From IMG/VR virus record IMGVR_UViG_3300031973_000739, positions 1 to 48,952 of that record: 48,952 nt of DNA; one strand, written 5' to 3'. The position numbers were made by a program, and so were the translations under genes. Shown in pieces: positions 1,620 through 48,952 of the stretch; the first letter of the stretch is position 1; the number at the start of each line of letters is the position of its first letter. The notes under the pieces were generated by a model, which did no database searches, was not told where the DNA came from, and saw only the letters and a list, made by a program, of their open reading frames with translations. This DNA comes from a virus.

Positions 1620-2261
1620 ATGATCTTTAATTTACAATCTATCAATGCTCAATTGAATTTTGATATAACAGGTGTTATACACGTTGGTGCATTTGATGGT
1701 GCAGAGTTAACAACATACAGGAAGTTAAATCTATTTAATACTATATTGTTTGAACCACAACGTGAAATGTATAATGTGGTTAGCCATAAGTGTATTGACG
1801 ATGAAGTTGTATATAATATAGCTCTTGGTTCAGAAGATATAGAAACAGAGATGTTTATATCTGATAAGGCTGGTGGTATGGCTAATGGTGCTACTCAGTC
1901 TAGTTCTATACTACAACCTAAAGTTCATCTGACAGAACATCCAGAGATTACATTTCCAAAGAAAGAAAATATCGTTGTAAAAAGATTTGACAATTTTGTA
2001 CAATCTAATAACATTGATGTATCTGGTTATAACATGCTTAACGTAGACGTTCAAGGTTACGAACTAGAAGTGTTTAAAGGATTTGGTGACTACTTAAATC
2101 AGATTGATATTATTATTGCAGAGGTCAACAGAAACGAAGTTTACAAAGATTGTGCTATGATTGGCGATATTGACAATTACTTACTAAAGTATGGCTTAAA
2201 ACAAGCCTCTGTTTACTGGCAATCTGCAAGCTGGGGAGATGCGATTTATGTCAGAAACTAA
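1620..2261 (+). CDS. FkbM-family SAM-dependent methyltransferase
   Basis: Predicted O-methyltransferase of the FkbM family, which methylates sugars or other small groups using S-adenosylmethionine. Length 213 aa. The SAM-binding loop is HVGAFDG (residues 21-27), the acidic end of strand 2 is FEP (44-46), and the family block NVDVQGYELEVFKG lies at 141-154, followed by the usual DIIIAEVN strand. A GGAAAGG Shine-Dalgarno sequence (about 1607-1613) supports the ATG at 1620. It is the first gene of a tightly overlapping run of sugar-related genes and probably modifies a glycan made by its neighbours. The exact acceptor cannot be read from sequence. Confidence 0.85.
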   Translation: MIFNLQSINAQLNFDITGVIHVGAFDGAELTTYRKLNLFNTILFEPQREMYNVVSHKCIDDEVVYNIALGSEDIETEMFISDKAGGMANGATQSSSILQPKVHLTEHPEITFPKKENIVVKRFDNFVQSNNIDVSGYNMLNVDVQGYELEVFKGFGDYLNQIDIIIAEVNRNEVYKDCAMIGDIDNYLLKYGLKQASVYWQSASWGDAIYVRN

Positions 2262-3198
2262 ACATCTAGTAACTCTTAGCGATCATAATTACTTAGTATA
2301 CGGCCTTAGTCTCTATGATTCTTTAGAAGAATACGATGACCAAAAAGACACATTTATCTTACATTATTTATGCACCAGCCAAGAAGCTTACGATAAACTG
2401 TCTTCTTTAAGTCTACCAAATATTGTTCCATATAATATAAAAGACTTAGAAAGCGATGAAGATTTTCTAAGATTAAAGAACAATCAACAGAGTAATACAA
2501 CTTCTGGGTATGATGGTAACAATCATTTTCACTGGGCATTGGCATCCTTCTTCTCGTATTATTTAATGGAGAATCATGATTTACCCCATATCGTTTACAT
2601 TGATAGTGATATTATGTTTTACAATCCTGTGGACAGAGTGTTAGACGCAATGCAGGATAAGAGTATTGGAATTATTACTCACAAACATATGGCTTTAGAA
2701 AAATCCAACAAAAATGTAGGATATTATAATGTAGGCGTTATAGTATTTAAAAATACAGAAGTTGGAAAGTCTTGTCTAAAATTTTGGAGAGACTGCTGTA
2801 TTGATACAGATAATAAATATGCAGAAGATTTTGGTACGTGTGGTGATCAAAAGTATTTAGAGTTATTCGATGAATTGTTTGACGAAAAAGAAATTAAAGT
2901 TTTGTGTCATGATGTTGGCAACATAGCGCCTTGGAATTTGCATATGTGTAAATTGCTTGGTAATAATGAAATGATGTGGTATGATCACAAAGGTTTTGTG
3001 CTACAGCCTGAGCAGAGTAAACTGCAAGATATAGTTTTCATGCACTTCAGTCATTTTACTCCAGATTTCGAGAGCGGATCTTTTAGGCTTGACAGAGGTG
3101 GTGAATGGGGTCCAATAGCGTCATACGAAAATGTTGTAGATTTGTATAGAGAGTATTATATAACTTGTTCACATACAAAAAGGAAATATAACTTATGA
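2248..3198 (+). CDS. GT8-like glycosyltransferase (GT-A fold)
   Basis: Predicted sugar transferase using a nucleotide sugar. The N-terminal VTLSDHNYLVYGLSLYDSL resembles the start of GT8-type enzymes. A metal-binding DSD follows the strand HIVYI (about residues 119-121 in this numbering), and NVGYYNVGVIVFKN followed by a Trp-rich C-terminal half also fits GT8-like proteins. ATG 2239 is an alternative start nine bases upstream; I prefer 2248 (MSETKH) because GGGGAG (2232-2237) then has normal spacing. It overlaps the FkbM gene by 14 bases and ends in an ATGA junction with the next gene, so the genes are translationally coupled. Confidence 0.72.
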   Translation: MSETKHLVTLSDHNYLVYGLSLYDSLEEYDDQKDTFILHYLCTSQEAYDKLSSLSLPNIVPYNIKDLESDEDFLRLKNNQQSNTTSGYDGNNHFHWALASFFSYYLMENHDLPHIVYIDSDIMFYNPVDRVLDAMQDKSIGIITHKHMALEKSNKNVGYYNVGVIVFKNTEVGKSCLKFWRDCCIDTDNKYAEDFGTCGDQKYLELFDELFDEKEIKVLCHDVGNIAPWNLHMCKLLGNNEMMWYDHKGFVLQPEQSKLQDIVFMHFSHFTPDFESGSFRLDRGGEWGPIASYENVVDLYREYYITCSHTKRKYNL

Positions 3199-3920
3199 CT
3201 AATGGAACGTATGTAGATTCTTGGAAAAGTTCAAAAAAAGCTTTTTATGATCAACTTAAATTAAATATGAGGGAAATGAAAGATAATCCCCCAGTTCATT
3301 GGCAAAATTTTATTGATTACATTAACGAGTGTAAGCCACAAAGAATAGTTGATGTTGGATGTGGAGCTGGCATATATTCTAAACTTTGTCATTATACTAA
3401 ACCTAACTATGGACAAGACCATGACACTAAGATTGAATATATTGGATATGATTATGCTGAAGCAGCAGTAGAAGTTGCAAATGAAGCTTGGACTGAAGGA
3501 GTTATAGAAGATCCCAGAAGTAGAATAGTGTTGAATAATCATGTTAAAACAAATTGTAGTTTTCATGTTAAAGGCTATGAAGATATTACAAAAGAGGATA
3601 TCAGAGATGGAGATTTATTAGTAGCTAATGGTTTAATTACTGTAATGGAAAATGGAATTGAATGTTTAGAACATCTGCTTTCTTTACAATGCAAAAATGT
3701 TCTTATACAGAGACAGGTAGTTACAGAAAAAGAAACATATGTAACAACTTATAACGCTTACGGTTTTACCACATATCTTTACCACATGAACAAAAAAGAA
3801 CTTAAATCTATAGTAAGAAAATATAATTACGATATAGAACTGATACGTCTTGGCGCAAGAACAGTAGATGATGAAAACTTCGATGCTCACTACGATATGC
3901 TTCTAAAATTACAGGATTAA
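3195..3920 (+). CDS. Class I SAM-dependent methyltransferase
   Basis: A 241-residue Rossmann-fold methyltransferase. Motif I is VDVGCGAG (52-59), followed by a second strand IEYIGYDYAEAAVEVA that would hold the SAM ribose, and DLLVANGLITVMENG where motif IV is expected. The start ATG overlaps the previous stop (ATGA), and the next gene begins five bases after its stop. Its substrate is unknown; placement between glycosyltransferases suggests a sugar or lipid-linked intermediate. Confidence 0.8.
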   Translation: MTNGTYVDSWKSSKKAFYDQLKLNMREMKDNPPVHWQNFIDYINECKPQRIVDVGCGAGIYSKLCHYTKPNYGQDHDTKIEYIGYDYAEAAVEVANEAWTEGVIEDPRSRIVLNNHVKTNCSFHVKGYEDITKEDIRDGDLLVANGLITVMENGIECLEHLLSLQCKNVLIQRQVVTEKETYVTTYNAYGFTTYLYHMNKKELKSIVRKYNYDIELIRLGARTVDDENFDAHYDMLLKLQD

Positions 3921-3924
3921 GGTT

Positions 3925-4806
3925 ATGAAAATTACATTTGGTATGATAGTATTTAATGGAAATTATGTGCTAAAAGAAGCCATAGAATCTATTTATCCAT
4001 ACGCTCATCAAATTTTAGTAGCAGAAGGCCCAGTTCAATATTGGCAAGACGAGGGCTATCAAACTTCAAATGATGGCACGAACGATGTTTTATCTCAGCT
4101 TTACGACCCAGATCATAAAATAACTATAGTACACAGTCAATATAAAGAGAAGGATGATCAGTGCAATATGTACATGAGTCTTATGAAGCCAGATACAGAC
4201 TATGTATGGAATTTAGATTGCGATGAAGTATTCAAACCTAAAGATACAGAAAAAGTTTTAGAGTTACTTGAAAAAGAAAAGTACACATCTGTTGGATTTA
4301 AGAGTCAAACTTTTTACGGAGGCTTTGAAAGATATCTTACAGGGTTTGAAGAAAATGCAGAATTTATTAGAATTAGAAAAGTATATCCCGGTTCTTATTG
4401 GTCTACACACAGACCGCCAACAGTGGCGCATGTAGTAAAAGCAGAGGACAGACTACCTGAAAAGCACTTAAACTACAACGTTTTGGCTGATGAACACGAT
4501 GTAAGAATGTACCATTACTCTTATGTGTTCCCACATCAAGTGTTTAACAAGATAAAATATTATAAAGAGTTTTTAAATAGTGCGAATACTATAGATAATT
4601 ATTTTTCACATGTATATCTGCCTTGGGTTATAGGTAGTGATCATATGAAAAACATGATAGAAGACAAATATCATGGAGTTCACGAATGGATACCGCAAGC
4701 TAGAGGGGAATGCAGAACAGCAAAGTTTACAGGTGAGCATCCAGAAGTTATAAATATAGAAGAATTGAACCACAAACTTGAGAAACAATTGAGTAAATAT
4801 ATATGA
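3925..4806 (+). CDS. GT2-like glycosyltransferase
   Basis: A 293-aa GT-A fold transferase. It begins with the typical first strand MKITFGMIVFNGNYVLKEAIESI and has NLDCDEVF (residues 96-103), in which DCDE is the likely metal/nucleotide-sugar site after VW. The C-terminal half contains a Trp/His-rich acceptor region. It has an in-frame ATG directly after GGTT and overlaps the next gene by four bases (ATGA). The donor and acceptor are not predictable; related phage and bacterial proteins act on surface glycans. Confidence 0.75.
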   Translation: MKITFGMIVFNGNYVLKEAIESIYPYAHQILVAEGPVQYWQDEGYQTSNDGTNDVLSQLYDPDHKITIVHSQYKEKDDQCNMYMSLMKPDTDYVWNLDCDEVFKPKDTEKVLELLEKEKYTSVGFKSQTFYGGFERYLTGFEENAEFIRIRKVYPGSYWSTHRPPTVAHVVKAEDRLPEKHLNYNVLADEHDVRMYHYSYVFPHQVFNKIKYYKEFLNSANTIDNYFSHVYLPWVIGSDHMKNMIEDKYHGVHEWIPQARGECRTAKFTGEHPEVINIEELNHKLEKQLSKYI

Positions 4807-5411
4807 AACCTTCAGTAATTTGTTGTGGATCTTTTCCATACAAGAATATTGATATAAATTACATAGTTGATTCTTTTGATACTATAATTAGACACAACAT
4901 GCTAGTGCCAAATTGTGGGTATGGGCTTAGAGATTCAACCATCCATGTGCTAAATAATCATTTATCTAAATATTGGAAGCAAAAAATTTCTATTGACAGG
5001 TGGTGTAAAATATATGAAAACCTCTATAATATAAGTAGAGAGCATATTGAAAAATTTCACGATTATGTAAATAGAGACAATATAAATTTAATTAACTATC
5101 CTACTAATAATACAGAATTAATGCAGGAAATATGCAAAAATAACAATGTAGAATATAATGTAACTGCTAAAATTCTTAGGTGTGGTTTAAGTTCTGTAGC
5201 TGCTTGTATATCAGATGGTTTAAAACCTTTCATGATTGGATACTCGATAGACGAAGAAAGCACGTTAGAGCATGTTTACAAGCATGATCGTACAATTAAC
5301 AAGAAATGGCATAATGCGTTGGAAGAAATCACCTTGATAAAATCTCTACATAAAGCTGGCTTAGTAGACGCTACGCTTTGCTGCTTAGAAGACAAAGATC
5401 ATTTATCATGA
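4803..5411 (+). CDS. Putative sialyltransferase-like (GT42/GT29-type) glycosyltransferase
   Basis: A 202-aa protein I place tentatively with sialyltransferase-fold enzymes. The N-terminus VICCGSFPYKNIDI then SFDTIIRHN parallels the GNGPSLK...FDVFRCN pattern of bacterial GT42 enzymes. CGLSSVAACISDGLKPFMIGYSID (broken here as CGLSSVAACISDG and KPFMIGYSID) parallels their SGVYMCAVAIALGYKEIYLSGID segment, and a later KWHNALEE offers the C-terminal His. If correct it would use a CMP-activated acidic sugar, which would fit the KdsA gene at 43.06 kb. This is pattern matching by eye; the protein is shorter than GT42 enzymes and could be another transferase. Confidence 0.5.
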   Translation: MKPSVICCGSFPYKNIDINYIVDSFDTIIRHNMLVPNCGYGLRDSTIHVLNNHLSKYWKQKISIDRWCKIYENLYNISREHIEKFHDYVNRDNINLINYPTNNTELMQEICKNNNVEYNVTAKILRCGLSSVAACISDGLKPFMIGYSIDEESTLEHVYKHDRTINKKWHNALEEITLIKSLHKAGLVDATLCCLEDKDHLS

Positions 5412-6328
5412 TAAACTTATTCAATGTCAATCATTACAAGATAGATACTGCACAGTTTTCAAATTTATTGCATGACAAATGTGTAACAGAGTTTGAAAAT
5501 GATTTTGCAGATTATGTAGGTGCAAAGTATGCATGTACAGCAAATAGTGCGTCAAGCCTTATCTTTTTAAGTCTTCTCAGATATGCACCAACTGTAGTAA
5601 AGATACCTACCATAATGCCCATAGTGGTTCCTAATGTAATAACTAACACTAGGCACAAAATTATATTCTATGATGATCCTGATTGGGTGGGTCATTGCTA
5701 TCATTTACATGATAACATATACGATTCAGCCCAAGAAGTATCTAGAGATATTTACAAAAAAATAAATGATGACAACGCCATAATGATATTTAGCTTCTAT
5801 CCAACAAAGCCAGTTGGCAGTTGCGATGGTGGAATGGTAGTCTGCAATGACTATGACACAATACAATATTTTAAAACAATGACTATGAATGGCACAACGC
5901 AAAATAGTGATAGCTGGAAAAGAAGTCAGACAGTTGCTGGATATAAGATGCATATTAATTCTTTACAAGCTGCAATGGCTCATTCAAACCTTAAAAAGTT
6001 AGATACAAAAAATAAAATATTAGAAGAGATAAAGGGGATATACAATCAAACATTTGGTATACAAAATACTAGCAATCATCTATATAGAATTAAGGTTGCT
6101 AATAACGCTTTATTCTTGAAGAAGATGGCAGAATGTGGTATACAGTGTGGTATACATTATGAAACTTGTCACAATAAAACATTTTTCAATTGCAACCAAC
6201 AGTCTTTACCTATATCAGAATCAGCATCCATGCACTATGCAAGTATACCATTTCATGAAGGACTATCTGTAAACGACATCAAAAAAGTGATAACATACAC
6301 TCATAAATTTTCAAAGGATAACAGATGA
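5408..6328 (+). CDS. DegT/DnrJ/EryC1-family PLP-dependent sugar aminotransferase-like protein
   Basis: The family transfers an amino group to keto-sugars linked to nucleotides, using pyridoxal phosphate. With the start at ATG 5408 (ATGA junction with the upstream gene; ATG 5378 would overlap more) the protein has 306 aa, shorter than the usual 360-400. FENDFADYVGAKYACTANSASS (split as FENDFADYVGAKY and ACTANSASS) is the standard N-terminal block. DSAQE (106-110) corresponds to the DAAQ cofactor-binding motif. SFYPTKP places the Schiff-base lysine at 134 and is followed by DGGMVVC. The key residues are present, so it is probably active. It would pair logically with the ketoisomerase at 46.09 kb. 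Confidence 0.82.
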   Translation: MINLFNVNHYKIDTAQFSNLLHDKCVTEFENDFADYVGAKYACTANSASSLIFLSLLRYAPTVVKIPTIMPIVVPNVITNTRHKIIFYDDPDWVGHCYHLHDNIYDSAQEVSRDIYKKINDDNAIMIFSFYPTKPVGSCDGGMVVCNDYDTIQYFKTMTMNGTTQNSDSWKRSQTVAGYKMHINSLQAAMAHSNLKKLDTKNKILEEIKGIYNQTFGIQNTSNHLYRIKVANNALFLKKMAECGIQCGIHYETCHNKTFFNCNQQSLPISESASMHYASIPFHEGLSVNDIKKVITYTHKFSKDNR

Positions 6329-7248
6329 ATAGGATTATAGTTACTGGTGGAAAAGGTTTTTTAGGTAAAGTAGTAACCACCAATCTACATTCTATGGGTA
6401 TGGTACATGCTCTTGATAGTTCAATGTATGATCTTAGATCTTACGAAGAAACAGAGCAGATGTACATAGATTTTAATCCTAATATTGTTGTACATTTAGC
6501 CGCTACGGTTGGAGGTATTGGGGCTAACAAAGAAAATCCGGGTAAATTTATTGAAGAAAACCTAGTAATGGGATATAATACTATCAAGTTAGCAAAAGAA
6601 TATGGTGTTGAAAAATTTGTAATGCTAGGAACAGTGTGTTCATATCCCAAACATTGCCCAGTACCATTTAAAGAAGAGGATTTATGGAATGGCTATCCAG
6701 AAGAAACAAATGCTCCATACGGAATAGCTAAGAAAACTCTTATGCAGATGATACAATCTTACAATCAACAGTATGGATTTAATGCAATTAATCTCATACC
6801 CGTGAATATGTATGGGCCTAATGATAATTTTGATCCTAAATCTAGCCACGTTATACCTGCACTGATTTTAAAATTCCAACAAGCAATTGATAATGGTCAT
6901 GAACCTGTTGAGATCTGGGGGACAGGTAGGGCTAGTAGAGAATTTCTATACGTTGATGATTGTGCAGAAGCTATAAAACTTGCAATCAAAAAATATAATA
7001 GACCTGAACCAACAAATATTGGAACAGGTAAAGAAATTACAATTATGGAATTAGCACAGAAAATATCAATAATTATGGGACATAAAGGAAGCATACACTA
7101 TAATCCTAAATATCCAGATGGTCAACCAAGAAGATGCTTAGATACATCTAAGGCTAAAGAACGTTTTGGCTTTGAAGCAACAACTGATTTCGACACAGGA
7201 CTAACTAAAACAATAGAATGGTTTAGAAATGATTACAGTAATACTTAA
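6325..7248 (+). CDS. fcl: GDP-L-fucose synthase-like NAD-dependent epimerase/reductase
   Basis: Short-chain dehydrogenase fold of the GDP-fucose synthase (Fcl/WcaG) type, which converts GDP-4-keto-6-deoxymannose to GDP-L-fucose. The nucleotide-binding loop TGGKGFLG is at 7-14. VHLAATVGGIGAN (56-68), then GTVCSYPKHCPVPFKEEDLW and the catalytic pair Y132/K136 in PYGIAK, match the Fcl pattern closely, as do NMYGPNDNF and SREFLYVDD. Length 307 aa is normal. No Gmd (GDP-mannose dehydratase) is visible in the window, so that step would come from the host or elsewhere in the genome. The start overlaps the upstream stop (ATGA). Confidence 0.85.
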   Translation: MNRIIVTGGKGFLGKVVTTNLHSMGMVHALDSSMYDLRSYEETEQMYIDFNPNIVVHLAATVGGIGANKENPGKFIEENLVMGYNTIKLAKEYGVEKFVMLGTVCSYPKHCPVPFKEEDLWNGYPEETNAPYGIAKKTLMQMIQSYNQQYGFNAINLIPVNMYGPNDNFDPKSSHVIPALILKFQQAIDNGHEPVEIWGTGRASREFLYVDDCAEAIKLAIKKYNRPEPTNIGTGKEITIMELAQKISIIMGHKGSIHYNPKYPDGQPRRCLDTSKAKERFGFEATTDFDTGLTKTIEWFRNDYSNT

Positions 7249-41231: not shown

Positions 41232-41449
41232 CACTAAAGAAAAAATGGATCGAGCATTTAAGTGAAAATCATATGACCTACTGGGAACATTGGAAGTTTG
41301 CAGTGAGTCATGGGCTAACATGTGTAAAAGCTGGAATATACTTGTGTATACATGGCTTTTTCCCTTGTTGGTACAGAAAAGCCGGAACTAAACTAGTGCA
41401 TAAATTAGAACAAGATTTTACTGAGAGAGAAAATGAGCTTAATAAATAA
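41228..41449 (+). CDS. DUF6356-like small protein
   Basis: 73 aa. HLSENHMTYWEHWKFAVSHG followed by a hydrophobic helix (LTCVKAGIYLCIHGFFPCWY), then GTKLVHKLEQDF, matches the DUF6356 pattern, a bacterial family often found beside capsule genes. It is coupled (ATGA) to the previous gene and overlaps the PAP2 gene by 17 bases. Confidence 0.55.
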   Translation: MTLKKKWIEHLSENHMTYWEHWKFAVSHGLTCVKAGIYLCIHGFFPCWYRKAGTKLVHKLEQDFTERENELNK

Positions 41450-42137
41450 AGTATCTGCGATTATTGATAACAAAGTTCCACTGAAAGATCTTACATATTC
41501 TCAACCATTTGTGTATGAATCAGGACAGGGTATACTTAGTATAAATTGGAAAAATATTCTACCAAAACCACCTGCTAATGACAGCATAACCACCAAAAAA
41601 GAACTAGATTTGGTCATTGAAGCAGCAGCTAATAGAAGTAATAAAGCTACTGAACTAGTATATAAAGTAGACGATGACCCTTTGCATTTATTCTACGATT
41701 TTCTAGAAAAGAAGAAATTAGAATATAATAGAAGTCTGTTTGACGAATACTATAATATATTAGAGTCTTACATGTATGCTACAAAATATCATTACAATAG
41801 ACCTAGACCAGAGCAAATTGCACCTTATTACAATCAAGAAGTCAAAGTTATATATACATCTACGCATCAAACTCCAGCATATCCTAGTGGTCACACAGCG
41901 TATGCAGCCTTAGCAGCACATATGTTATCTAAGAAATTTCCAGAATATAAAAAACAATTTTTCGACTTGGCAAAACAGGCTGGAACTGCTAGAATATTAC
42001 AGGGGGTTCACTTTCCCTCTGATAATGTCGCTGGAATAACTCTCGCAAAATTTATATTTAAAGAGATTGAAAGGAAGGTCCAAGATGTCTCAAAAAGAAC
42101 CAAAACGTATCCCTCTGACTACACCCGGACAACCTAA
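41433..42137 (+). CDS. PAP2-type acid phosphatase
   Basis: 234 aa. The three phosphatase motifs are complete: KYHYNRPRP (118-126), PSGH (151-154) and ARILQGVHFPSDN (186-198) with the nucleophile His193, Arg187 and Asp197. It lacks the six membrane spans of lipid phosphate phosphatases, so it resembles soluble class A acid phosphatases, but it has no signal peptide. Substrate may be a sugar phosphate from the neighbouring pathway, a nucleotide or a lipid pyrophosphate. Confidence 0.85.
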   Translation: MSLINKVSAIIDNKVPLKDLTYSQPFVYESGQGILSINWKNILPKPPANDSITTKKELDLVIEAAANRSNKATELVYKVDDDPLHLFYDFLEKKKLEYNRSLFDEYYNILESYMYATKYHYNRPRPEQIAPYYNQEVKVIYTSTHQTPAYPSGHTAYAALAAHMLSKKFPEYKKQFFDLAKQAGTARILQGVHFPSDNVAGITLAKFIFKEIERKVQDVSKRTKTYPSDYTRTT

Positions 42138-42211: not shown

Positions 42212-43066
42212 ATGAACGTTGTACCCATACCACCTTCGTATAACGAAGATCAATCTCTATCACTAAAAGATACAGAATTTTACATTAAATTTCTAGAAGT
42301 AAATCATTGCCAAGCAGTGATGACTACCGCTGGAACCTCCCAGTTTAATCTACTGTCTATAGAGGAAATCAAGGAATTAAACTCATGTGTGTGTGATTTT
42401 TCTGGTAAAAAGATTATTGGTTTACCACCTTTATCTCTTGTAAAAGTAATTGAATTTGTGAAATCCTGCACAGAGTCGGAAGATTCGCACTGGATGGCAT
42501 TGTACCCAGACAGATACTACGACGATGATTCTATTGTTGAATATTTTCTAAGGATTAGAGAGCATACTAACAAAGCTATTTATGTTCACGGTATGTTTAC
42601 TAGATCTGGATACGGAGGTACTTGGAATTACACCGCTGATGTTTTGAATAAACTGTGGGATCAAGGCATTATATGTGGAATTAAAGAAGAACATAGCGAC
42701 CTTGCCAAAGCATTCAATGTTCTAAATAAATGCCCTAAAAATCTAGATGTAATCGTAGCTGGAGGCAGTATGAGAAGACATCAGTTTTTAAAGAACGCTG
42801 GAGCAAACTCTTTTCTTGCTGGCATTGGTAATATATTTCCTAGCATAGAACAGAAATATTGTGATGGTGTTGATATTGATAAATGCTTGCAAAAAGAAAG
42901 TACGTTGTTTAGTACATTCGGAAAGTATGGTTGGCACAGATCTCTAAGAATAGGTCTTGCTCTATCTAATCTTTGTTGTTATAATGATAGAATGCCATAT
43001 CCAAAGAGAGACACAGAAGTTGTCAACGCAATAAAGAAAGTTTTGGAGAAGATATCAAATGTATAA
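42212..43066 (+). CDS. DHDPS/N-acetylneuraminate lyase-family aldolase
   Basis: 284 aa, TIM-barrel class I aldolase family. TTAGTSQF (38-45) is the pyruvate-carboxylate-binding loop, Y124 (KAIYVHG) the proton relay and K158 (GIKEEHSD) the Schiff-base lysine. Family members make dihydrodipicolinate or split/build acidic keto-sugars from pyruvate. Being joined to a Kdo-8-phosphate synthase gene, an acidic-sugar role is more likely than lysine synthesis. GGAAACG precedes the ATG; it overlaps kdsA by eight bases. Confidence 0.8.
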   Translation: MNVVPIPPSYNEDQSLSLKDTEFYIKFLEVNHCQAVMTTAGTSQFNLLSIEEIKELNSCVCDFSGKKIIGLPPLSLVKVIEFVKSCTESEDSHWMALYPDRYYDDDSIVEYFLRIREHTNKAIYVHGMFTRSGYGGTWNYTADVLNKLWDQGIICGIKEEHSDLAKAFNVLNKCPKNLDVIVAGGSMRRHQFLKNAGANSFLAGIGNIFPSIEQKYCDGVDIDKCLQKESTLFSTFGKYGWHRSLRIGLALSNLCCYNDRMPYPKRDTEVVNAIKKVLEKISNV

Positions 43067-43862
43067 AACTTGGATATTGGGACCATGCTCTATAGAGTCG
43101 GAAGCATTGTTTTTCGAGTGTCTTGCTGAAATCAACTCAATTATGGATACTAGAACTGTTCATAGAGAATCTGATGATACATGGTACATGAAAGCTAGTT
43201 TTGATAAGGCAAATAGGACATCCTTACATGGTGGTCGTGGTCCGGGTCTGGAAGAAGCTTTAAAAATATGGGCTGCTGCAAAAGAGAAATACCCAAAAGT
43301 TAAATTTACAACAGATGTGCATGAGTGCCATCAAGTAGAAAAACTAAAGGGTGTTATTGATGTAGTGCAAATACCAGCATTTTTGTCGCGTCAGACTGAT
43401 CTTATTGTAGAGTGTGCTAAACACTTTGATGTTGTCAATATTAAAAAAGGTCAATGGCTTGGTCCAAATAACCTTAAAGCTTCTGTAGATAAGATTAAAG
43501 AAACAAACGATAAGTGTCAAGCTTGGGTTTGTGACAGAGGATCAAACTTTGGTTATCATGATTTGTTTGTAAACTTTGGAATTGTAGACGAACTCAAAAA
43601 GTGTTATGACAAAGTAATCCTTGATTGCACACATTCAACCCAAAGATCCAGAGAAGTGTATGGCGTACAAGGCGATCCAGTATTAGCTGAAAGATACTTT
43701 TTAGCTGCTGATATTTTTAATTACGATGGAGTTTTTGCAGAGGTTCATCCTAGACCAAAAGAGTCTGTGTCAGATGGAGAATGTCTTATTGATCTTGAAC
43801 GACTTCGTTCTTTAGTTATAGAGGCTAAATCTATTAAAAGATTGAGAGAAAAATTACGATGA
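43059..43862 (+). CDS. kdsA: 3-deoxy-D-manno-octulosonate-8-phosphate synthase
   Basis: Condenses phosphoenolpyruvate with arabinose-5-phosphate to Kdo-8-phosphate. The 267-aa protein contains GPCSIES (8-14), KASFDKANRTS (45-55), GRGPG (59-63), TDVHE (85-89), QIPAFLSRQTDL (104-115), NIKKGQ (127-132) and CDRGSNFGYHDL (158-169), all in KdsA order. No SAF domain is present, so it is not NeuB. KdsD, KdsC and KdsB are absent from the window and would have to come from the host or elsewhere in the genome. Confidence 0.92.
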   Translation: MYKTWILGPCSIESEALFFECLAEINSIMDTRTVHRESDDTWYMKASFDKANRTSLHGGRGPGLEEALKIWAAAKEKYPKVKFTTDVHECHQVEKLKGVIDVVQIPAFLSRQTDLIVECAKHFDVVNIKKGQWLGPNNLKASVDKIKETNDKCQAWVCDRGSNFGYHDLFVNFGIVDELKKCYDKVILDCTHSTQRSREVYGVQGDPVLAERYFLAADIFNYDGVFAEVHPRPKESVSDGECLIDLERLRSLVIEAKSIKRLREKLR

Positions 43863-44533
43863 TAATGCAAACTCTTTTACACACCAATCCTATAGAGGAC
43901 ATGAAAGATGTGCTAGTAGAAGACGGTGTTTTTAAGATTGATAATTACATTTCTGATACAACTCTACAAGAATTATACGACGATGTGCTACAAAGATGCA
44001 CTACTGAGGCCGGTCATTATGAGTTTGGAAGAAACTACAGGGGTGGAGACTTATCAACATATAATAAGTCAAATATAATTCATAGAGTATACAATGCGGA
44101 ATGGATGAGAAAACTACATGATTTGTACACTGGTAGGCCACAGACATATGGAATGAACGTATTTGCTACGCATGATTATAAATACGATGGAGAGCTAGCT
44201 AGAAATGGTTGGCTACACTTCGATAGACATTGGAGGCTAAAGTTTTTTCTGTACCTTACCGATATAGACGTTAGTTCAGGTGCATTTAGTTGTTCAGTTG
44301 GTTCTAGATTTGCTGGATCAGTGCTTAGAGAAAAAGCTTGGCAGCAACCTAAATATGAAGACGTAAAAAATAGGATAGAGCTAGATTATCCAGATTTAAT
44401 TGATAAATATCCAGCAGAACCAGTTGAGGGCAAAGCTGGAACTTTAATAGTATTTGATACGGACACTTTCCATAAGGGTGGCAAGTGCGAAGATGGAAAA
44501 GAAAGACTAATCGTGAGGTTGCATTGTGGATAA
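43859..44533 (+). CDS. Phytanoyl-CoA dioxygenase-type Fe(II)/2-oxoglutarate oxygenase
   Basis: 224 aa. The iron ligands are H120 and D122 (LHFDRH) and H205 (DTFHKGG), with arginine near 216-220 for 2-oxoglutarate. LKFFLYLTDIDVSSGAFS and VFDTDTFHKGG are typical. Family members hydroxylate small molecules, lipids or sugars. It starts at ATGA over the kdsA stop and overlaps the next gene by eight bases, so it probably acts on a product of this pathway. Confidence 0.83.
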   Translation: MIMQTLLHTNPIEDMKDVLVEDGVFKIDNYISDTTLQELYDDVLQRCTTEAGHYEFGRNYRGGDLSTYNKSNIIHRVYNAEWMRKLHDLYTGRPQTYGMNVFATHDYKYDGELARNGWLHFDRHWRLKFFLYLTDIDVSSGAFSCSVGSRFAGSVLREKAWQQPKYEDVKNRIELDYPDLIDKYPAEPVEGKAGTLIVFDTDTFHKGGKCEDGKERLIVRLHCG

Positions 44534-45695
44534 AGTTAAATTTCTTGATTTAGGCAAACAACCTATAGCAAATAGATTTTTAAGTAAAGATGATTTTGAG
44601 AATGAATTTTTCTATAATCTTCAAGTTGGCGTAGACAAAGAAACAATGCTAGTTACACACATGAACTATGTAGATGCACCACTTATGTTCAATGACAACT
44701 ATGCATATAGGGGTTCAATGTCAAAGACTATGGTTAATCATTTTCAGAGTTTTAGTTCATTGATCAGAACATCCTTAAAACCTGAAGCAAAGATTTTAGA
44801 AATAGGTAGCAATGACGGAGTGTTCCTAAAAAATTGGCATACAGATAATACTATTGCTGTAGAGCCTTGTGGTAACTTTGCAAAAGAAACAAATGATTTA
44901 GGATATAAAACATATGATGAATTTTGGACAGAGGATTTAGCAGAAAGAATGGTAGAAGAACACGGTCAGATGGACTTTATTTTTTCAGCTAATTGTATGT
45001 GTCACATACCAGATTTAGACCAAACTTTTAACGCTATAGTAAAAGTCATGGATCATAATGGTATATTTGTGTTTGAAGACCCATCATTATTACAAATGAT
45101 TTGTTTAAATTCATATGATCAAATATACGATGAACACCCACATGTATTTTCAATAACATCTTTAGATAGAATATTAAGAAAACATGGACTATTTATAATT
45201 AAAGTAGAAAATACTACAGTGCATGGTGGATCAAATAGAGTATGGGTTCAGAAAAAACATGCAAATAGGGATAGAACAGTAGAAGATAATCTCAATGCAG
45301 AAAGAGTAATGGGGCTTTGTGATATGTCTACTTATGATAAATTCGCTGAGTCTGTAGACAAGTCAAAAAATGATTTAGTAAATCTGTTGAAAAGATGTAA
45401 AGCTGATGGTAATAAAGTTATATCATACGGCGCAACTTCAAAATCAACTACTGTATTTAATTACTGCAATATTGGAACTAATCTTATTGACTATATTACA
45501 GACACTACCCCTGAAAAACAAGGACTTTATTCTCCCGGTATGCACATACCAATTATACCACCGGAGCAGGGAGTTGATAAAACAGTAGACTTTGCTTATT
45601 TAGGTGCTTGGAATTTTGCTCAAGAAATACAAGAAAAAGAAAAGAACTTTCATGGGAAATTTATAACACATGTACCTACAGTAAGGATATTATGA
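44526..45695 (+). CDS. Nucleotide-sugar C-methyltransferase
   Basis: 389 aa from GTG 44526. SAM motif EIGSNDG (92-98), CMCHIPDLDQTF, EDPSLLQMI, then a second domain with VENTTVHGGSNRVW and ISYGATSKSTTVFNY, the GYGA-x-K signature. This is the TylC3/NovU layout, which adds a methyl to C3 or C5 of keto-deoxysugars. The Cys-rich zinc site normally found at the very N-terminus is missing (the protein begins LDLGKQPIANRFLS), so it is trimmed compared with bacterial members. Confidence 0.85.
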   Translation: MDKVKFLDLGKQPIANRFLSKDDFENEFFYNLQVGVDKETMLVTHMNYVDAPLMFNDNYAYRGSMSKTMVNHFQSFSSLIRTSLKPEAKILEIGSNDGVFLKNWHTDNTIAVEPCGNFAKETNDLGYKTYDEFWTEDLAERMVEEHGQMDFIFSANCMCHIPDLDQTFNAIVKVMDHNGIFVFEDPSLLQMICLNSYDQIYDEHPHVFSITSLDRILRKHGLFIIKVENTTVHGGSNRVWVQKKHANRDRTVEDNLNAERVMGLCDMSTYDKFAESVDKSKNDLVNLLKRCKADGNKVISYGATSKSTTVFNYCNIGTNLIDYITDTTPEKQGLYSPGMHIPIIPPEQGVDKTVDFAYLGAWNFAQEIQEKEKNFHGKFITHVPTVRIL

Positions 45696-46093
45696 ATTAT
45701 CACGAAGACGATAGGGGTCAAAGATTATTTGATCTGTTTCCAGAACTTAATGGTCAAGTAAATATTACCTATGTAAACTCAACAAGCCATGTTGTAGCTT
45801 GGCATAGACACGAAATACAAACTGATTATTGGTTTTGCCCAAAGGGTTCTTTTAAGGTTGGTTTAGGATATGAAAGAGATGATGGTACGGTAGATGTAGA
45901 TGTAGTTTGGCATTATATATCAGACAAGAACCATCGTGTCCTTGAAATACCTCCGGGCGTGTGGCACGGATATAAAGCTTTACAACCAGAATCAATTATG
46001 TTATACTACCTTACAGAAAAATATAATTTTGCAGATGAAGAAAAAGTTTTACCCGGAGCGTTCCACGAAGATTGGAACACAATAAGTCAATGA
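45692..46093 (+). CDS. RmlC-like cupin (deoxysugar epimerase/isomerase type)
   Basis: 133 aa from ATG 45692 (ATGA junction). AWHRHEIQTDYWFCPKGSF (36-54) with H38 and H40 and LEIPPGVWHGYKAL (84-97) correspond to the substrate-binding strands of dTDP-4-dehydrorhamnose 3,5-epimerase-like cupins. It is shorter than RmlC (about 180 aa) and I cannot see the full His-Asp pair with certainty, so it may be a related isomerase. Confidence 0.68.
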   Translation: MNYHEDDRGQRLFDLFPELNGQVNITYVNSTSHVVAWHRHEIQTDYWFCPKGSFKVGLGYERDDGTVDVDVVWHYISDKNHRVLEIPPGVWHGYKALQPESIMLYYLTEKYNFADEEKVLPGAFHEDWNTISQ

Positions 46094-46542
46094 AGACTAA
46101 ATATGGACTACCAACAGTTCAAGATATAAAGATTATTAGCTTTCCACTCAATATTACTACGTTGGGTAACGGTCAAAATGCTGGTCATCTAGTGGCAATT
46201 AATATGCCTGAATTGCCTTTTATTCCTAAAAGGATGTTTCATGTGTCAAATGTTCAGCATAGATTTGATCGAGGTAGACATGCACATTATGATACTACTC
46301 AATTGATAACGTGTGTAAGCGGTAGCGTTAAGCTAACTTTGAAAGATGGAATAGGTGGCGTTGTGTCTTTCAATCTATCACAACCTCAAACTGCCATCCT
46401 TGTACCTAGAATGATATGGGATGAAGTGAATTACGCTGACTCTCAATCTACTTTATTGGTTTTTAGTGACACAGAGTACGATCCAGAAGATTACATTATC
46501 AGTTGGGATAAATATATAAATGAATATAATAAAACCTCATGA
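46090..46542 (+). CDS. FdtA/QdtA-like dTDP-4-keto-6-deoxyhexose 3,4-ketoisomerase (WxcM-like cupin)
   Basis: 150 aa from ATG 46090. RGRHAHYDTTQLITCVSGSV (61-80) contains the catalytic HAH and the strand typical of 3,4-ketoisomerases; LTLKDG, PRMIWDEVNY and FSDTEYDPEDYI complete the family order. The product, a 3-keto sugar, is the normal substrate of DegT-type aminotransferases such as the one at 5408. Overlaps the neighbours by four and 23 bases. Confidence 0.82.
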   Translation: MKTKYGLPTVQDIKIISFPLNITTLGNGQNAGHLVAINMPELPFIPKRMFHVSNVQHRFDRGRHAHYDTTQLITCVSGSVKLTLKDGIGGVVSFNLSQPQTAILVPRMIWDEVNYADSQSTLLVFSDTEYDPEDYIISWDKYINEYNKTS

Positions 46543-47167
46543 AAACTTTGATGCTTGGTATATTGACAATTTTGTACCATCAAGCGGATTAGTTAGAGCA
46601 GCAGCAGAAAGTTTTGATAGACTAGCACCTGAGTGGTGGGTCTCATATGGCGATGAAGGACAGATAGGTAAATGTTCTCCCGCATCTATACAGTCAATTA
46701 CCCATGAGTGCTTAGTGGTAATGGACTACATAGCGACACATTTTGACACCACTGCGATAAATAAGAAAGACAAAACTTTCCCAGATTTAACTGGTTACGG
46801 TGGTGGTATGATGGTGACACCAAATAAAAATGGTGAAGGAGGGTTTCTTGGTATGCACATAGATGCTCAAACTCACAAGCTTCACACAAACTGGAAGAGA
46901 GAATACAGTGTAGTTCTTGGTTTATCAGAAGACTATGATTCTTCGTTCGATCTAAGATTGCACAATGGAGAGCAACATTGCAGATTACCTTACAAATTCA
47001 ATAGACTAAATATATTTAAGTTTCATGAAAACTCTTGGCATGGATTTCCAGAGATTACAAAAGGTAAAGACAGGAAAACTATTGGCCTAATGTATTGGTC
47101 TATAACAGATGAGGAAATGTCTTTTACTAAAGCTAGATTTAATAGGGAACTAAATTTTAATGAATGA
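46520..47167 (+). CDS. Prolyl-hydroxylase-like Fe(II)/2-oxoglutarate oxygenase
   Basis: 215 aa. H113 and D115 (GMHIDAQTH), H174 (NSWHGFPE) and R185 (KDRKTIGL) give the complete Fe/2OG set on a double-stranded beta-helix; DLTGYGGGMMV is the strand before it. Of a different subfamily from the oxygenase at 43859. May hydroxylate a protein, sugar or lipid; context favours a glycan or glycoprotein step. Confidence 0.8.
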   Translation: MNIIKPHENFDAWYIDNFVPSSGLVRAAAESFDRLAPEWWVSYGDEGQIGKCSPASIQSITHECLVVMDYIATHFDTTAINKKDKTFPDLTGYGGGMMVTPNKNGEGGFLGMHIDAQTHKLHTNWKREYSVVLGLSEDYDSSFDLRLHNGEQHCRLPYKFNRLNIFKFHENSWHGFPEITKGKDRKTIGLMYWSITDEEMSFTKARFNRELNFNE

Positions 47168-48149
47168 TGTTTGCTTACTAGTCACAGTTAGGACAAGAAG
47201 AGATAATATACCAAAACTATGTGGTTACTACAAAGACTTTCCTTGTAGAAAAATATTATCAGATAATTACGACACACCATATGAAGATATCGAACTAATT
47301 AAAGAGTGTGGATTTGAGTATATACATAGTGATCCTAGCAAATGGTGGTGGGATATCCTAGCAGATATTTCTTTAAGTATTGAACAAAAGTACATGATAC
47401 AAGTAGCAGACGATGATAGAATATTAAAATCAGGTCTGATAAAAAGTTTAGATTTGTTAAGACAAAATGAAGATATGGTCACATGCGATGGTGGTCAACT
47501 AGGATTTAATGTGGCACATAATCCAGATATTTCAAGAGTTACTGTAAAAAACTTAGGAAGTGGTTCGTATTACAAACAAAATACAATGAACCCTGATTCG
47601 CGGCAACGATTAATAAATTTTTATTTTCATAATTACTATGATATCATACATTCAGTTCATAAAACTGAAGTACATGCTAGAGTATATGATTTCTTAAGAA
47701 GTAGTGGCGCAAGGAAATCCCTAAACGCAGAGGGGAATTTTTTCACAATTATGGCTCTAGATGCAGGCAAAAAGGGTTCTGTTGCTCCATATGCAATGTT
47801 AGTTAGAAATACAAACACAAAAGACAGAGAAATAGAAATGGGTCATGAAAGGAAGTTGTATGAATTACTTGGTTGGAATTTAGATTCAGAATTTACTGAG
47901 AAAAAACAAAATTTGGTAGAATTATCTGAAATTGTTCTAAAAGATACTTTACTTTTAGATAAAGATCAAAATACTGTAGATAAAATTGATTTTCTACATG
48001 GACTGACAACTGCCTATATTAAATTCTGGAGAAGAGATATACATAGTAAGAGATTTACTCCGTGTCCTGATAGACGTTTAGATTTCAACGAATATATGCA
48101 CGAAAGTCAAGTTACAGAAATATCTAACTGTATAAGGAATATGAAGTGA
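47160..48149 (+). CDS. GT-A glycosyltransferase (TIGR00180-like)
   Basis: 329 aa. It begins with a short GT-A strand (DVCLLVTVRTRRDNIPKLCG), a metal-binding VADDDRIL (82-89), then a domain for acceptor binding containing GNFFTIMALDAGKKG. The arrangement resembles the TIGR00180 group often found in phages and capsule loci. It overlaps the previous gene by eight bases and the next by four. Confidence 0.7.
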   Translation: MNDVCLLVTVRTRRDNIPKLCGYYKDFPCRKILSDNYDTPYEDIELIKECGFEYIHSDPSKWWWDILADISLSIEQKYMIQVADDDRILKSGLIKSLDLLRQNEDMVTCDGGQLGFNVAHNPDISRVTVKNLGSGSYYKQNTMNPDSRQRLINFYFHNYYDIIHSVHKTEVHARVYDFLRSSGARKSLNAEGNFFTIMALDAGKKGSVAPYAMLVRNTNTKDREIEMGHERKLYELLGWNLDSEFTEKKQNLVELSEIVLKDTLLLDKDQNTVDKIDFLHGLTTAYIKFWRRDIHSKRFTPCPDRRLDFNEYMHESQVTEISNCIRNMK

Positions 48150-48850
48150 GATTACTAGTATCTGGTGGGAATGGCAAATTTTGCAATAAACTTATACAAA
48201 AAAATAAAGATCATGAAATATTTGCGCCTGATAGATATGACATGGATATTACTAATATTAATTCTGTAAAAAGCAATATTAGTAAATTCAAACCAGATAT
48301 ATTTTTACACGCAGCAGCACTGACTAGACCAATGGTTAACCATGTAGACAGGCCACACATAAGTATAAAAACTAATATTATTGGTACTGGAAATGTCTGT
48401 TTAGCTTGCATGGAAAGTAATCTAAAACTAGTCTATATTTCTACTGATTATGTATATCCCGGCACGAAAGGTGATTATAGAGAAGATGATCCCCTTTTAC
48501 CAGTAAATGAGTACGCTTGGTCTAAATTGGGTGGAGAATGTGCTGTGCATTTATACAAAAATTCACTTATAATTAGGACTTGTATGACAGAAAAACCCTT
48601 TGTGCATACCCACGCATTAGTAGATTGTAAAAAAAGCATGATTTATATTGACGATGCAGCAGAAATATGCTTGAAAATTTTAGGCCAAACGGGTATCATT
48701 AATTTAGGCGGGTCTCCTACTTCTCCTTACGAATTTGTAAAAAAAGATAATAAAGACATAGGGAAGATATATATGGAAGACGTATCAGATGTTGATATGG
48801 CTGAAGATAGTACGATGAATATAGACAAGCTAAAAAAGGCATTGACATGA
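48146..48850 (+). CDS. RmlD-like (dTDP-4-dehydrorhamnose reductase-like) SDR
   Basis: 234 aa from GTG 48146 (GTGA junction). Nucleotide loop SGGNGKFC (6-13), DRYDMDITN, KPDIFLHAAALT, YISTDYVYPGTKG (97-109), and Y123/K127 in YAWSK are the RmlD pattern. It is shorter than RmlD (about 290 aa), with a trimmed C-terminal substrate domain, so the sugar may differ. It likely reduces the keto-deoxysugar shaped by the cupins upstream. Confidence 0.8.
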   Translation: MRLLVSGGNGKFCNKLIQKNKDHEIFAPDRYDMDITNINSVKSNISKFKPDIFLHAAALTRPMVNHVDRPHISIKTNIIGTGNVCLACMESNLKLVYISTDYVYPGTKGDYREDDPLLPVNEYAWSKLGGECAVHLYKNSLIIRTCMTEKPFVHTHALVDCKKSMIYIDDAAEICLKILGQTGIINLGGSPTSPYEFVKKDNKDIGKIYMEDVSDVDMAEDSTMNIDKLKKALT

Positions 48851-48952
48851 AAAAATTAAATTTAGGATGTGCATGTCGATTTTTAGAAGGATATATCAAT
48901 ATAGATATGGATTCTATCGAGGACATAAAGCACAGATATCCAAACGTAAATA
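48847..48952 (+). CDS. SAM-dependent methyltransferase, N-terminal part (cut by window edge)
   Basis: The frame from ATG 48847 (overlapping the previous stop, ATGA) reads MKKLNLGCACRFLEGYINID and continues to the edge. KLNLGC followed by GYINID is the start of many phage and bacterial methyltransferases acting on sugars or lipids, where the usual glycine pair (GCG) is here GCA. Only 35 residues are visible. Confidence 0.65.
   Translation, partial: MKKLNLGCACRFLEGYINIDMDSIEDIKHRYPNVN

Follow-up and report, generated by a model that had tools for sequence, protein, structure and literature searches.

A candidate phage module for a CMP-activated 3-deoxy-ulosonic acid, with KdsA beside a DHDPS-fold enzyme

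We analysed IMG/VR virus record IMGVR_UViG_3300031973_000739, which was taken as one complete stretch of 48,952 bases (hereafter, the window) and carries at its right end a block of nine plus-strand genes with overlapping ends (42212-48850). The first two genes encode ALD, a class I aldolase-like protein of the DHDPS/NAL fold, and a protein of the KdsA family (3-deoxy-D-manno-octulosonate 8-phosphate, or Kdo-8-P, synthase). Together with a cytidylyltransferase and often a GT29-like glycosyltransferase, these two proteins form a module that is conserved in diverse viral contigs. We lean, if only slightly, towards reading the block as part of a phage glycan-building system, which would comprise enzymes to make and transfer a cytidine monophosphate (CMP)-activated 3-deoxy-ulosonic acid (Kdo or one of its derivatives), alongside a deoxythymidine diphosphate (dTDP)-sugar line. 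Phage-borne sugar genes, and KdsA in company with NeuA, were already known; the module, of which no earlier description was found, and the ALD enzyme subfamily are worth a bench test. Sugar genes of phages tend to be recorded as unconnected inventories; a compact, recurring module lets its parts be assayed together. If the proposed reading is true, the GT29 family would be tied to Kdo-type donors in phages, the DHDPS superfamily would gain a new branch, and a phage would have a means, open to testing, of adding an acidic sugar akin to sialic acid to itself or its host.

Gene order in viral contigs

Viral loci were found by a KdsA search (19 loci) and by a search with the ALD alignment (37 loci). 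The gene-order table comprised 36 loci, one per contig; it omits L002-L004, which are near-copies of L005, and any second locus on a contig already represented. ALD was present on 34 of the 36 loci, in partial form in L081 and L082, and on 25 after removal of near-duplicates. The non-redundant counts given below leave out L008, L013, L014, L019, L063, L064, L066, L075 and L076, whose KdsA shares 90 % identity or more with a retained one. The names RmlD, RmlB, and Fcl overlap in the neighbourhood tables, as they designate related reductases/epimerases.

KdsA was located directly 3' of ALD in 29 of the 31 loci with downstream sequence (20 of 22 non-redundant loci), and four genes after ALD in L067 and L079. 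Among loci found via ALD alone, which had not been chosen for KdsA, it was the next gene in 15 out of 17. The cytidylyltransferase gene was observed at most six genes away in 29 of the 31 loci (20 of 22 non-redundant); it lies 14 genes off in the window's lineage and was not found in the L079 locus. Moreover, PF02348 was detected in 18 of the 19 records found with KdsA. Upstream of ALD, a GT29-like gene was present no more than two genes away in 22 out of 32 loci (16 of 24 non-redundant), and one was found anywhere on the locus in 27 out of 34. PhyH and KdsA genes were at most three genes apart in 13 out of 31 loci (10 of 22 non-redundant).

The window stops inside the block, the remainder of which was supplied by L005, from a record of 135,790 bases; the two share 15,894 bases at 99.96 % identity, and L005 runs on past the window's end. 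Beyond this point, L005 encodes, in order, a methyltransferase, a protein with no assigned family, a second methyltransferase, RmlA, RmlB, the cytidylyltransferase, and a HAD protein of 101 residues, all within 5 kb; the DNA polymerase III alpha gene comes after the HAD protein. The same continuation genes are carried by L002 and L003. An earlier reading of the window, made from the sequence only, had suggested following the contig to the right and looking for rmlA/rmlB and kdsB/kdsC. Indeed, rmlA, rmlB, a CMP-sugar synthetase, and a small HAD phosphatase were all present there, the synthetase not being KdsB-like.

That reading also treated the genes at the right end as a second sugar block, distinct from the sugar genes at the left end of the window. 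The four window genes at 1620-4806 have relatives immediately upstream of ALD-KdsA in L062 and L064, in a slightly different order; in L072 and L076 such relatives precede the pair with one intervening GT29-like gene. In addition, a DegT gene directly precedes a GT29-like gene, followed by the ALD/KdsA pair, in L010, L016, and L060. In relatives, therefore, parts of these two sugar blocks belong to a single block, and the notion of a separate second block is not supported. The link drawn earlier to the DegT gene is supported by this synteny; the neighbouring GT29-like transferase had been left unconnected to the block.

Predicted enzymes of the acid line

ALD scored 20.3 bits against the Pfam DHDPS family, just below the cut-off of 22.1, and its best sequence matches were structures named DHDPS. 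The AlphaFold model (confidence measure pLDDT, 90) was characterized by a complete DHDPS-type TIM barrel over its whole length. Compared with DHDPS/NAL structures, the best 50 matches had Z values of 27.9-28.8, with 272-277 residues aligned, a root-mean-square deviation (rmsd) of 2.4-2.8, and 11-17 % identity. The Schiff-base lysine, K158, is invariant: all 26 members have it, and it aligns with that of the GIKE motif in E. coli DapA. At the place of DapA Y133, which we take to be the proton-shuttle tyrosine, ALD has no tyrosine but His126, also invariant in 26 of 26, and the threonine pair of DapA is replaced by Gly-Thr. A tblastn search with the window ALD at 1e-5 gave no match among 50,697 phage records and 72,556 plasmid records. 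Likewise, two strict exact-motif scans (TAGTSQ and IVAGGS types) gave no relatives in 84,980 bacterial and archaeal genomes, one per species, although distant or motif-variant relatives would escape such scans. The ALD subfamily was thus found here only in viral contigs. Because KdsA makes the type of 2-keto-3-deoxy acid that the superfamily binds, we propose the KdsA product as the substrate that ALD reworks.

The best NCBIfam model for the window KdsA was the Kdo-8-P synthase model NF003543 (236.8 bits, cut-off 242). Scores on DAHP synthase models were below 50 bits, and an alignment of 234 positions with E. coli KdsA gave 40 % identity. Among three relatives scored, that of L018 passed NF003543 (265.7 bits) and failed TIGR01362, and those of L010 and L016 failed both. 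Residues C10, H192, E228, and D239, presumably the metal-ligand places of Aquifex KdsA, are present, as they are in the full-length viral proteins aligned; all this agrees with the family named in the sequence-only reading. The protein also bears KASFDKANRTS, and therefore the KANR(S/T)S motif, which we assume to be the aldose-phosphate motif. In a tree that gave long-branch warnings and held only two bacterial rows, the ALD-linked KdsAs and that of L015 grouped together, separately from E. coli KdsA, S-SCSM2R, and LR756500 (support 100/99). Two KdsA matches in Staphylococcus phages showed 26 % identity. Of two further matches annotated as 'Acinetobacter phage MD-2021a', the one in CAKLQF020000008.1 (L094) was rejected as a phage gene: the viewed stretch of its 155.7-kb contig is bacterial chromosome, with the order pyrG-kdsA-eno-ftsB-ispD. 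Seven extra in-frame residues were observed in the window KdsA near residue 30 (43146-43166), an insert absent from the viral relatives except near-identical contigs.

For the CMP-sugar synthetase of L005 and its relatives (CYTIDYLYLTRANSFERASE), PseF/NeuA was nearer than KdsB in all six proteins scored, with PseF ranking first in each of the six. The L005 protein scored 108.8 of 205.7 bits on its best model, PseF, versus 58.6 of 193 and lower on the KdsB models, and its nearest solved structures were NeuA at 1.8e-19 versus KdsB at 2.1e-12. The activated sugar may therefore not be plain Kdo. The eight-carbon acid previously ascribed to KdsA is still likely, but the cytidylyltransferase expected to go with it is not of the KdsB type.

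HAD proteins were counted only when they carried DID and DDK-type motifs, which gave 18 free-standing proteins and the fusion in L011; raw matches of the iterative profile were discarded, the profile having drifted onto the methyltransferase via this fusion. The motif filter may miss true members; it missed the fusion in L057, which was recovered by a separate motif scan. In L057, a HAD domain followed by ALD occupies a single frame of 398 residues, the HAD half being recognised by motif and by eye, as NCBIfam at 1e-3 scored the ALD half only; the fusion comes from one contig and may be an assembly error. The L011 fusion joins a methyltransferase to a HAD domain (a single contig with two loci, L011/L058). 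These two fusions suggest that the phosphatase, ALD, and a decorating methyltransferase share one pathway.

The same set of enzymes might instead provide ordinary CMP-Kdo, which would boost or alter the host lipopolysaccharide (superinfection exclusion), with ALD incidental to it, for example as a pyruvate aldolase feeding precursors. Kdo-8-P synthase is the best-scoring family for KdsA, and L015 encodes a KdsA of the ALD-linked clade with no ALD on its 20.8-kb locus. In Synechococcus phage S-SCSM2R (PQ898602), KdsA adjoins KdsB amid glycosyltransferases and 2-oxoglutarate (2OG) oxygenases; this record has no ALD match, and its KdsA lies on a long branch outside the ALD-linked viral clade. Moreover, kdsA/kdsB have been reported as marine viral metabolic genes (PMC10653327), and the available part of another account proposes a host-surface role for such genes (PMC5332604). 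Arabidopsis RCKT1/MGP2, a GT29 protein, is described on genetic evidence as a putative CMP-Kdo transferase, which ties the family to Kdo rather than sialic acid; from the accessible text, it is of the plant Golgi type, whereas the phage members adjoin KdsA (PMC11288761). However, as the ALD-KdsA pair is retained in 29 of 31 loci and ALD is fused to a phosphatase in one contig, ALD does not look incidental, and the cytidylyltransferase resembles PseF/NeuA rather than KdsB. Overall, a supply of plain Kdo appears unlikely.

The GT29-like transferase was assigned by profile. A profile of 25 members matched ST3Gal1 at 1.6e-23, with the His and Glu of motif VS aligned; these residues, which we take to be functional in sialyltransferases, correspond to H170 and E175 and are invariant in 25 of the 25 members. 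With the model of the window protein (pLDDT 92), the top 28 Protein Data Bank rows of a Foldseek search were all sialyltransferases, 15 of them at E <= 0.001. The Pfam check of the profile-based assignments covered nine relatives and the window copy: PF00777 was over its gathering score in all nine relatives, each of which lies outside the window copy's subgroup (L006, L007, L012, L013, L060, L067, and L020; 33-43 % identical to the window copy). A GT29 query from L073 at 1e-5 retrieved one phage record only, which is uncultured, and no isolate phage.

A sialyltransferase-family enzyme and a NeuA/PseF-like cytidylyltransferase would suit a nine-carbon acid. ALD, with its DHDPS/NAL fold and Schiff-base lysine, might then be a second ulosonic-acid synthase, joining pyruvate and an aldose in the manner of N-acetylneuraminate lyase in reverse, so that two acids would be formed and the cytidylyltransferase and GT29 would serve the ALD product. 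Two cytidylyltransferase-like genes are present in L019, but in no other listed locus, and KdsA is at most four genes from ALD in all 31 loci that are not cut off there. We therefore give this second-synthase explanation a low probability.

Proposed pathway, acceptors and known systems

In the favoured scheme, KdsA would condense phosphoenolpyruvate and arabinose 5-phosphate into a 3-deoxy-ulosonic acid phosphate, from which the small HAD protein would strip the phosphate. ALD would then rework the 2-keto-3-deoxy acid via a Schiff base, for instance by C4 epimerisation (retro-aldol/aldol) or dehydration, after which the PseF/NeuA-type cytidylyltransferase would form the CMP sugar and the GT29-like enzyme would transfer it. 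The PhyH oxygenase, or a methyltransferase in other contigs, may decorate the acid. A more specific version, which we put forward tentatively, is a virus-specific route to an undescribed CMP-3-deoxy-ulosonic acid that combines the KdsA product, an ALD class with His for Tyr, a NeuA/PseF-type synthetase, and a phage GT29, and that would give the phage its own sialic-acid-like coat or a host-surface tag.

Several observations weigh against this scheme. The ALD reaction is a guess from the fold, and the enzyme could precede KdsA in the pathway or have another substrate. KdsA falls below both equivalog cut-offs (236.8 of 242 bits for NF003543; 222.4 of 314 for TIGR01362), and the cytidylyltransferase falls below every one. 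The window GT29-like protein has no Pfam GT29 match, hence the name 'GT29-like', its model superposes loosely (TM-score 0.44-0.58, rmsd 7.5-10.7), and its gene is 37 kb from KdsA in this genome. A GT29-like gene is also absent from 7 out of 34 loci (L062-L064, L074, L079, L081, and L005), although L063, L074, and L081 are cut short and L005 has one elsewhere in its record (the window copy). Finally, a HAD domain was found in just 19 of the 34 loci (20 including the L057 fusion); host enzymes may serve elsewhere.

The dTDP line comprises RmlA, RmlB, the cupins, the C-methyltransferase, and the RmlD-like reductase. RmlA and RmlB would produce dTDP-4-keto-6-deoxyglucose, which the cupins, the C-methyltransferase, and the RmlD-like reductase would convert into a branched, possibly aminated, deoxysugar. 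By sequence similarity, RmlA, RmlB, and the RmlD-like protein are homologues of the dTDP-rhamnose enzymes, with scores below the equivalog cut-offs (205.4 of 360.65, 317 of 365.1, and 90 of 224.05 bits, respectively). A marker of this line (C-methyltransferase or RmlC-like cupin) was observed on 17 out of 34 loci; the dTDP line is therefore accessory.

No open reading frame (ORF) with at least four hydrophobic segments was detected among the 155 of the 135.8-kb record, a few of them counted twice at seams; the scan included the 3.7-kb stretch between the window end and L041. By the same hydropathy measure, E. coli RfbX has nine segments and WbbH six. The only ORF with three segments is part of a long tail-measure-like protein. 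The PF01943 flippase was found in none of 23 records, which is weak evidence as these are fragments, and the family search did not extend to other flippases, polymerases, or ABC exporters. The phage thus seems to supply enzymes without machinery for export, and glycan assembly is probably cytosolic. Virion proteins, host lipid-linked glycans, or DNA therefore remain as acceptors. We would place a virion protein first, at somewhat below an even chance, and a host surface glycan a close second; DNA is a less probable acceptor. Virion glycosylation has been reported for mycobacteriophages, as cited in PMC12619734. A temperate phage with lysogenic conversion was also considered and was not retained: the PF00589 integrase was found in 0 of 23 records, all of them possibly fragments, and serine integrases were not searched. 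The terminase of the 135.8-kb record is about 26 % identical to the best-matching phage terminases and another large protein of its structural region had no match, which places this lineage far from isolate phages.

Among known systems, P-SSM2 reportedly carries a lipopolysaccharide cluster. The sequence-only reading regarded the combination of genes as no known phage pathway, which may hold for the module as a whole: our literature search, mostly at title and abstract level, found no report of an ALD-KdsA-cytidylyltransferase-GT29 module in phages. It does not hold for some of its parts, as kdsA/kdsB and KdsA with NeuA were already described in viruses. The 179-kb marine virus TARA_ERS478052_N000008 reportedly has KdsA, NeuA, Gmd, and WcaG together; its account, in the part available, is an annotation list that mentions no ALD-type enzyme, GT29, or gene order (PMC5332604). 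Remodelling of an ulosonic acid by a phage is known from the Acinetobacter prophage genes epaA/epaB, which convert pseudaminic into 8-epipseudaminic acid, as seen by nuclear magnetic resonance of the capsule; these alter a host-made sugar, and the accessible portion of the report describes no synthesis, activation, or transfer genes (PMC12053666). Azotobacter phage TayeBlu has a gene annotated as an alpha-2,3-/2,8-sialyltransferase, a likeness by annotation alone, with no donor-synthesis genes mentioned in the text at hand (PMC12772287). Bacterial GT29 proteins with sialylmotifs have been described outside eukaryotes, in an article whose main text, as available, uses neither 'phage' nor 'virus' (PMC5811610). 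Finally, the Kdo dioxygenase KdoO, which forms Ko and acts on the Kdo of the lipid A-core, is a possible model, by its published description only, for the PhyH gene linked to KdsA (PMC5462993, in part).

Gene calls and neighbouring features

The features of the window are given in Table 1. The eight genes named in the sequence-only reading were all present on the plus strand in a chain with overlapping ends; a putative glycosyltransferase lying inside the chain had been omitted. For both cupins, the listed TTG starts (45608 and 46072) are probably better replaced by the ATG codons at 45692 and 46090, each of which overlaps the preceding stop as ATGA.

Table 1. Features of the window discussed in the text, with positions, strand and basis of assignment
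Feature	Position	Strand	Basis
ALD, DHDPS/NAL-fold class I aldolase-like protein	42212-43066	+	Pfam DHDPS below cut-off, AlphaFold fold, Lys158
KdsA family (3-deoxy-D-manno-octulosonate 8-phosphate synthase), metal-type	43059-43862	+	Pfam/NCBIfam, C10/H192/E228/D239, KANRTS
PhyH-type Fe/2OG oxygenase	43859-44533	+	Family match and linkage to KdsA
Sugar C-methyltransferase (Methyltransf_13/23/14)	44526-45695	+	Family match; first Cys at residue 115
RmlC-like cupin	45692-46093	+	Family match; listed ORF start 45608
FdtA-like 3,4-ketoisomerase cupin	46090-46542	+	Pfam FdtA, 100.9 bits; listed ORF start 46072
2OG-Fe(II) oxygenase	46520-47167	+	PF13640
Putative glycosyltransferase	47160-48149	+	TIGR04440, below threshold (57.9 bits, cut-off 70)
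RmlD-like short-chain reductase, 234 aa	48146-48850	+	Family match
Class I methyltransferase gene, 5' part, leaves the window	48847-48952	+	Full copy L005:15789-16394
Divergent GT29-like (sialyltransferase-family) glycosyltransferase	4803-5411	+	Relatives, model, motif VS H170/E175
DegT-family aminotransferase, 316 aa	5378-6328	+	Family match, synteny
FkbM methyltransferase, GT8-like and GT2-like transferases, methyltransferase	1620-4806	+	Family matches
GDP-fucose-synthase-like epimerase/reductase	6325-7248	+	283.8 of 500 bits

Differences from L006 peaked at codon position 3 in 9 out of 10 gene pairs, the sole exception being a distant RmlD-family paralogue. For example, differences at positions 1, 2, and 3 amounted to 19, 12, and 52 % for KdsA, and to 9, 3, and 41 % for the 2OG oxygenase. 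By eye, the iron- and cofactor-binding motifs of the oxygenases, the FdtA-like cupin, RmlB, and DegT appeared to be kept. These data bear on whether the genes are merely decaying remnants of a host cluster, passively carried. The window KdsA, with its seven extra residues, the GT29-like protein, and the RmlD-like protein are a little divergent or short, as remnants might be. However, the frames are intact and joined by ATGA overlaps, the position-3 excess is seen in nine of ten pairs, catalytic residues are retained, and the module is kept in diverse viral contigs, which makes decay highly improbable.

Other genes of the phage were noted in passing. The DNA polymerase III alpha of L041 (1159-5284) appeared to be divided into two ORFs of 521 and 519 residues, of which only the first was scanned, with exonuclease-like and HNH-like ORFs seen by eye between them; a split gene, an intein, or an intron is possible. 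A GDP-mannose 4,6-dehydratase-like gene, recognised by eye on the minus strand of L044 (10314-11300), close to the other end of this phage's record, is a possible partner of the GDP-fucose-synthase-like gene of the window. A PAP2-superfamily phosphatase of 234 residues (41433-42137), with fewer than two hydrophobic segments, is encoded 74 bases 5' of the block.

At the left end, the window encodes a DUF1501 protein (15-1265; 430 bits). DUF1501 was present in 3 of the 23 records, the window's own lineage included, and a tandem pair of such genes (L087 and L089) was observed within a related viral record of 121.8 kb (G014); the gene looks phage-carried rather than host flank. Upstream of the DUF1501 gene, L045:964-3282 resembles a family that is often paired with DUF1501 in Planctomycetota/Verrucomicrobiota, a weak hint as to the host. 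Directly 3' of the DUF1501 gene, we observed a transfer-messenger RNA gene (1265-1605; Rfam, 116.6 bits) with the tag ADTSVLALAA.

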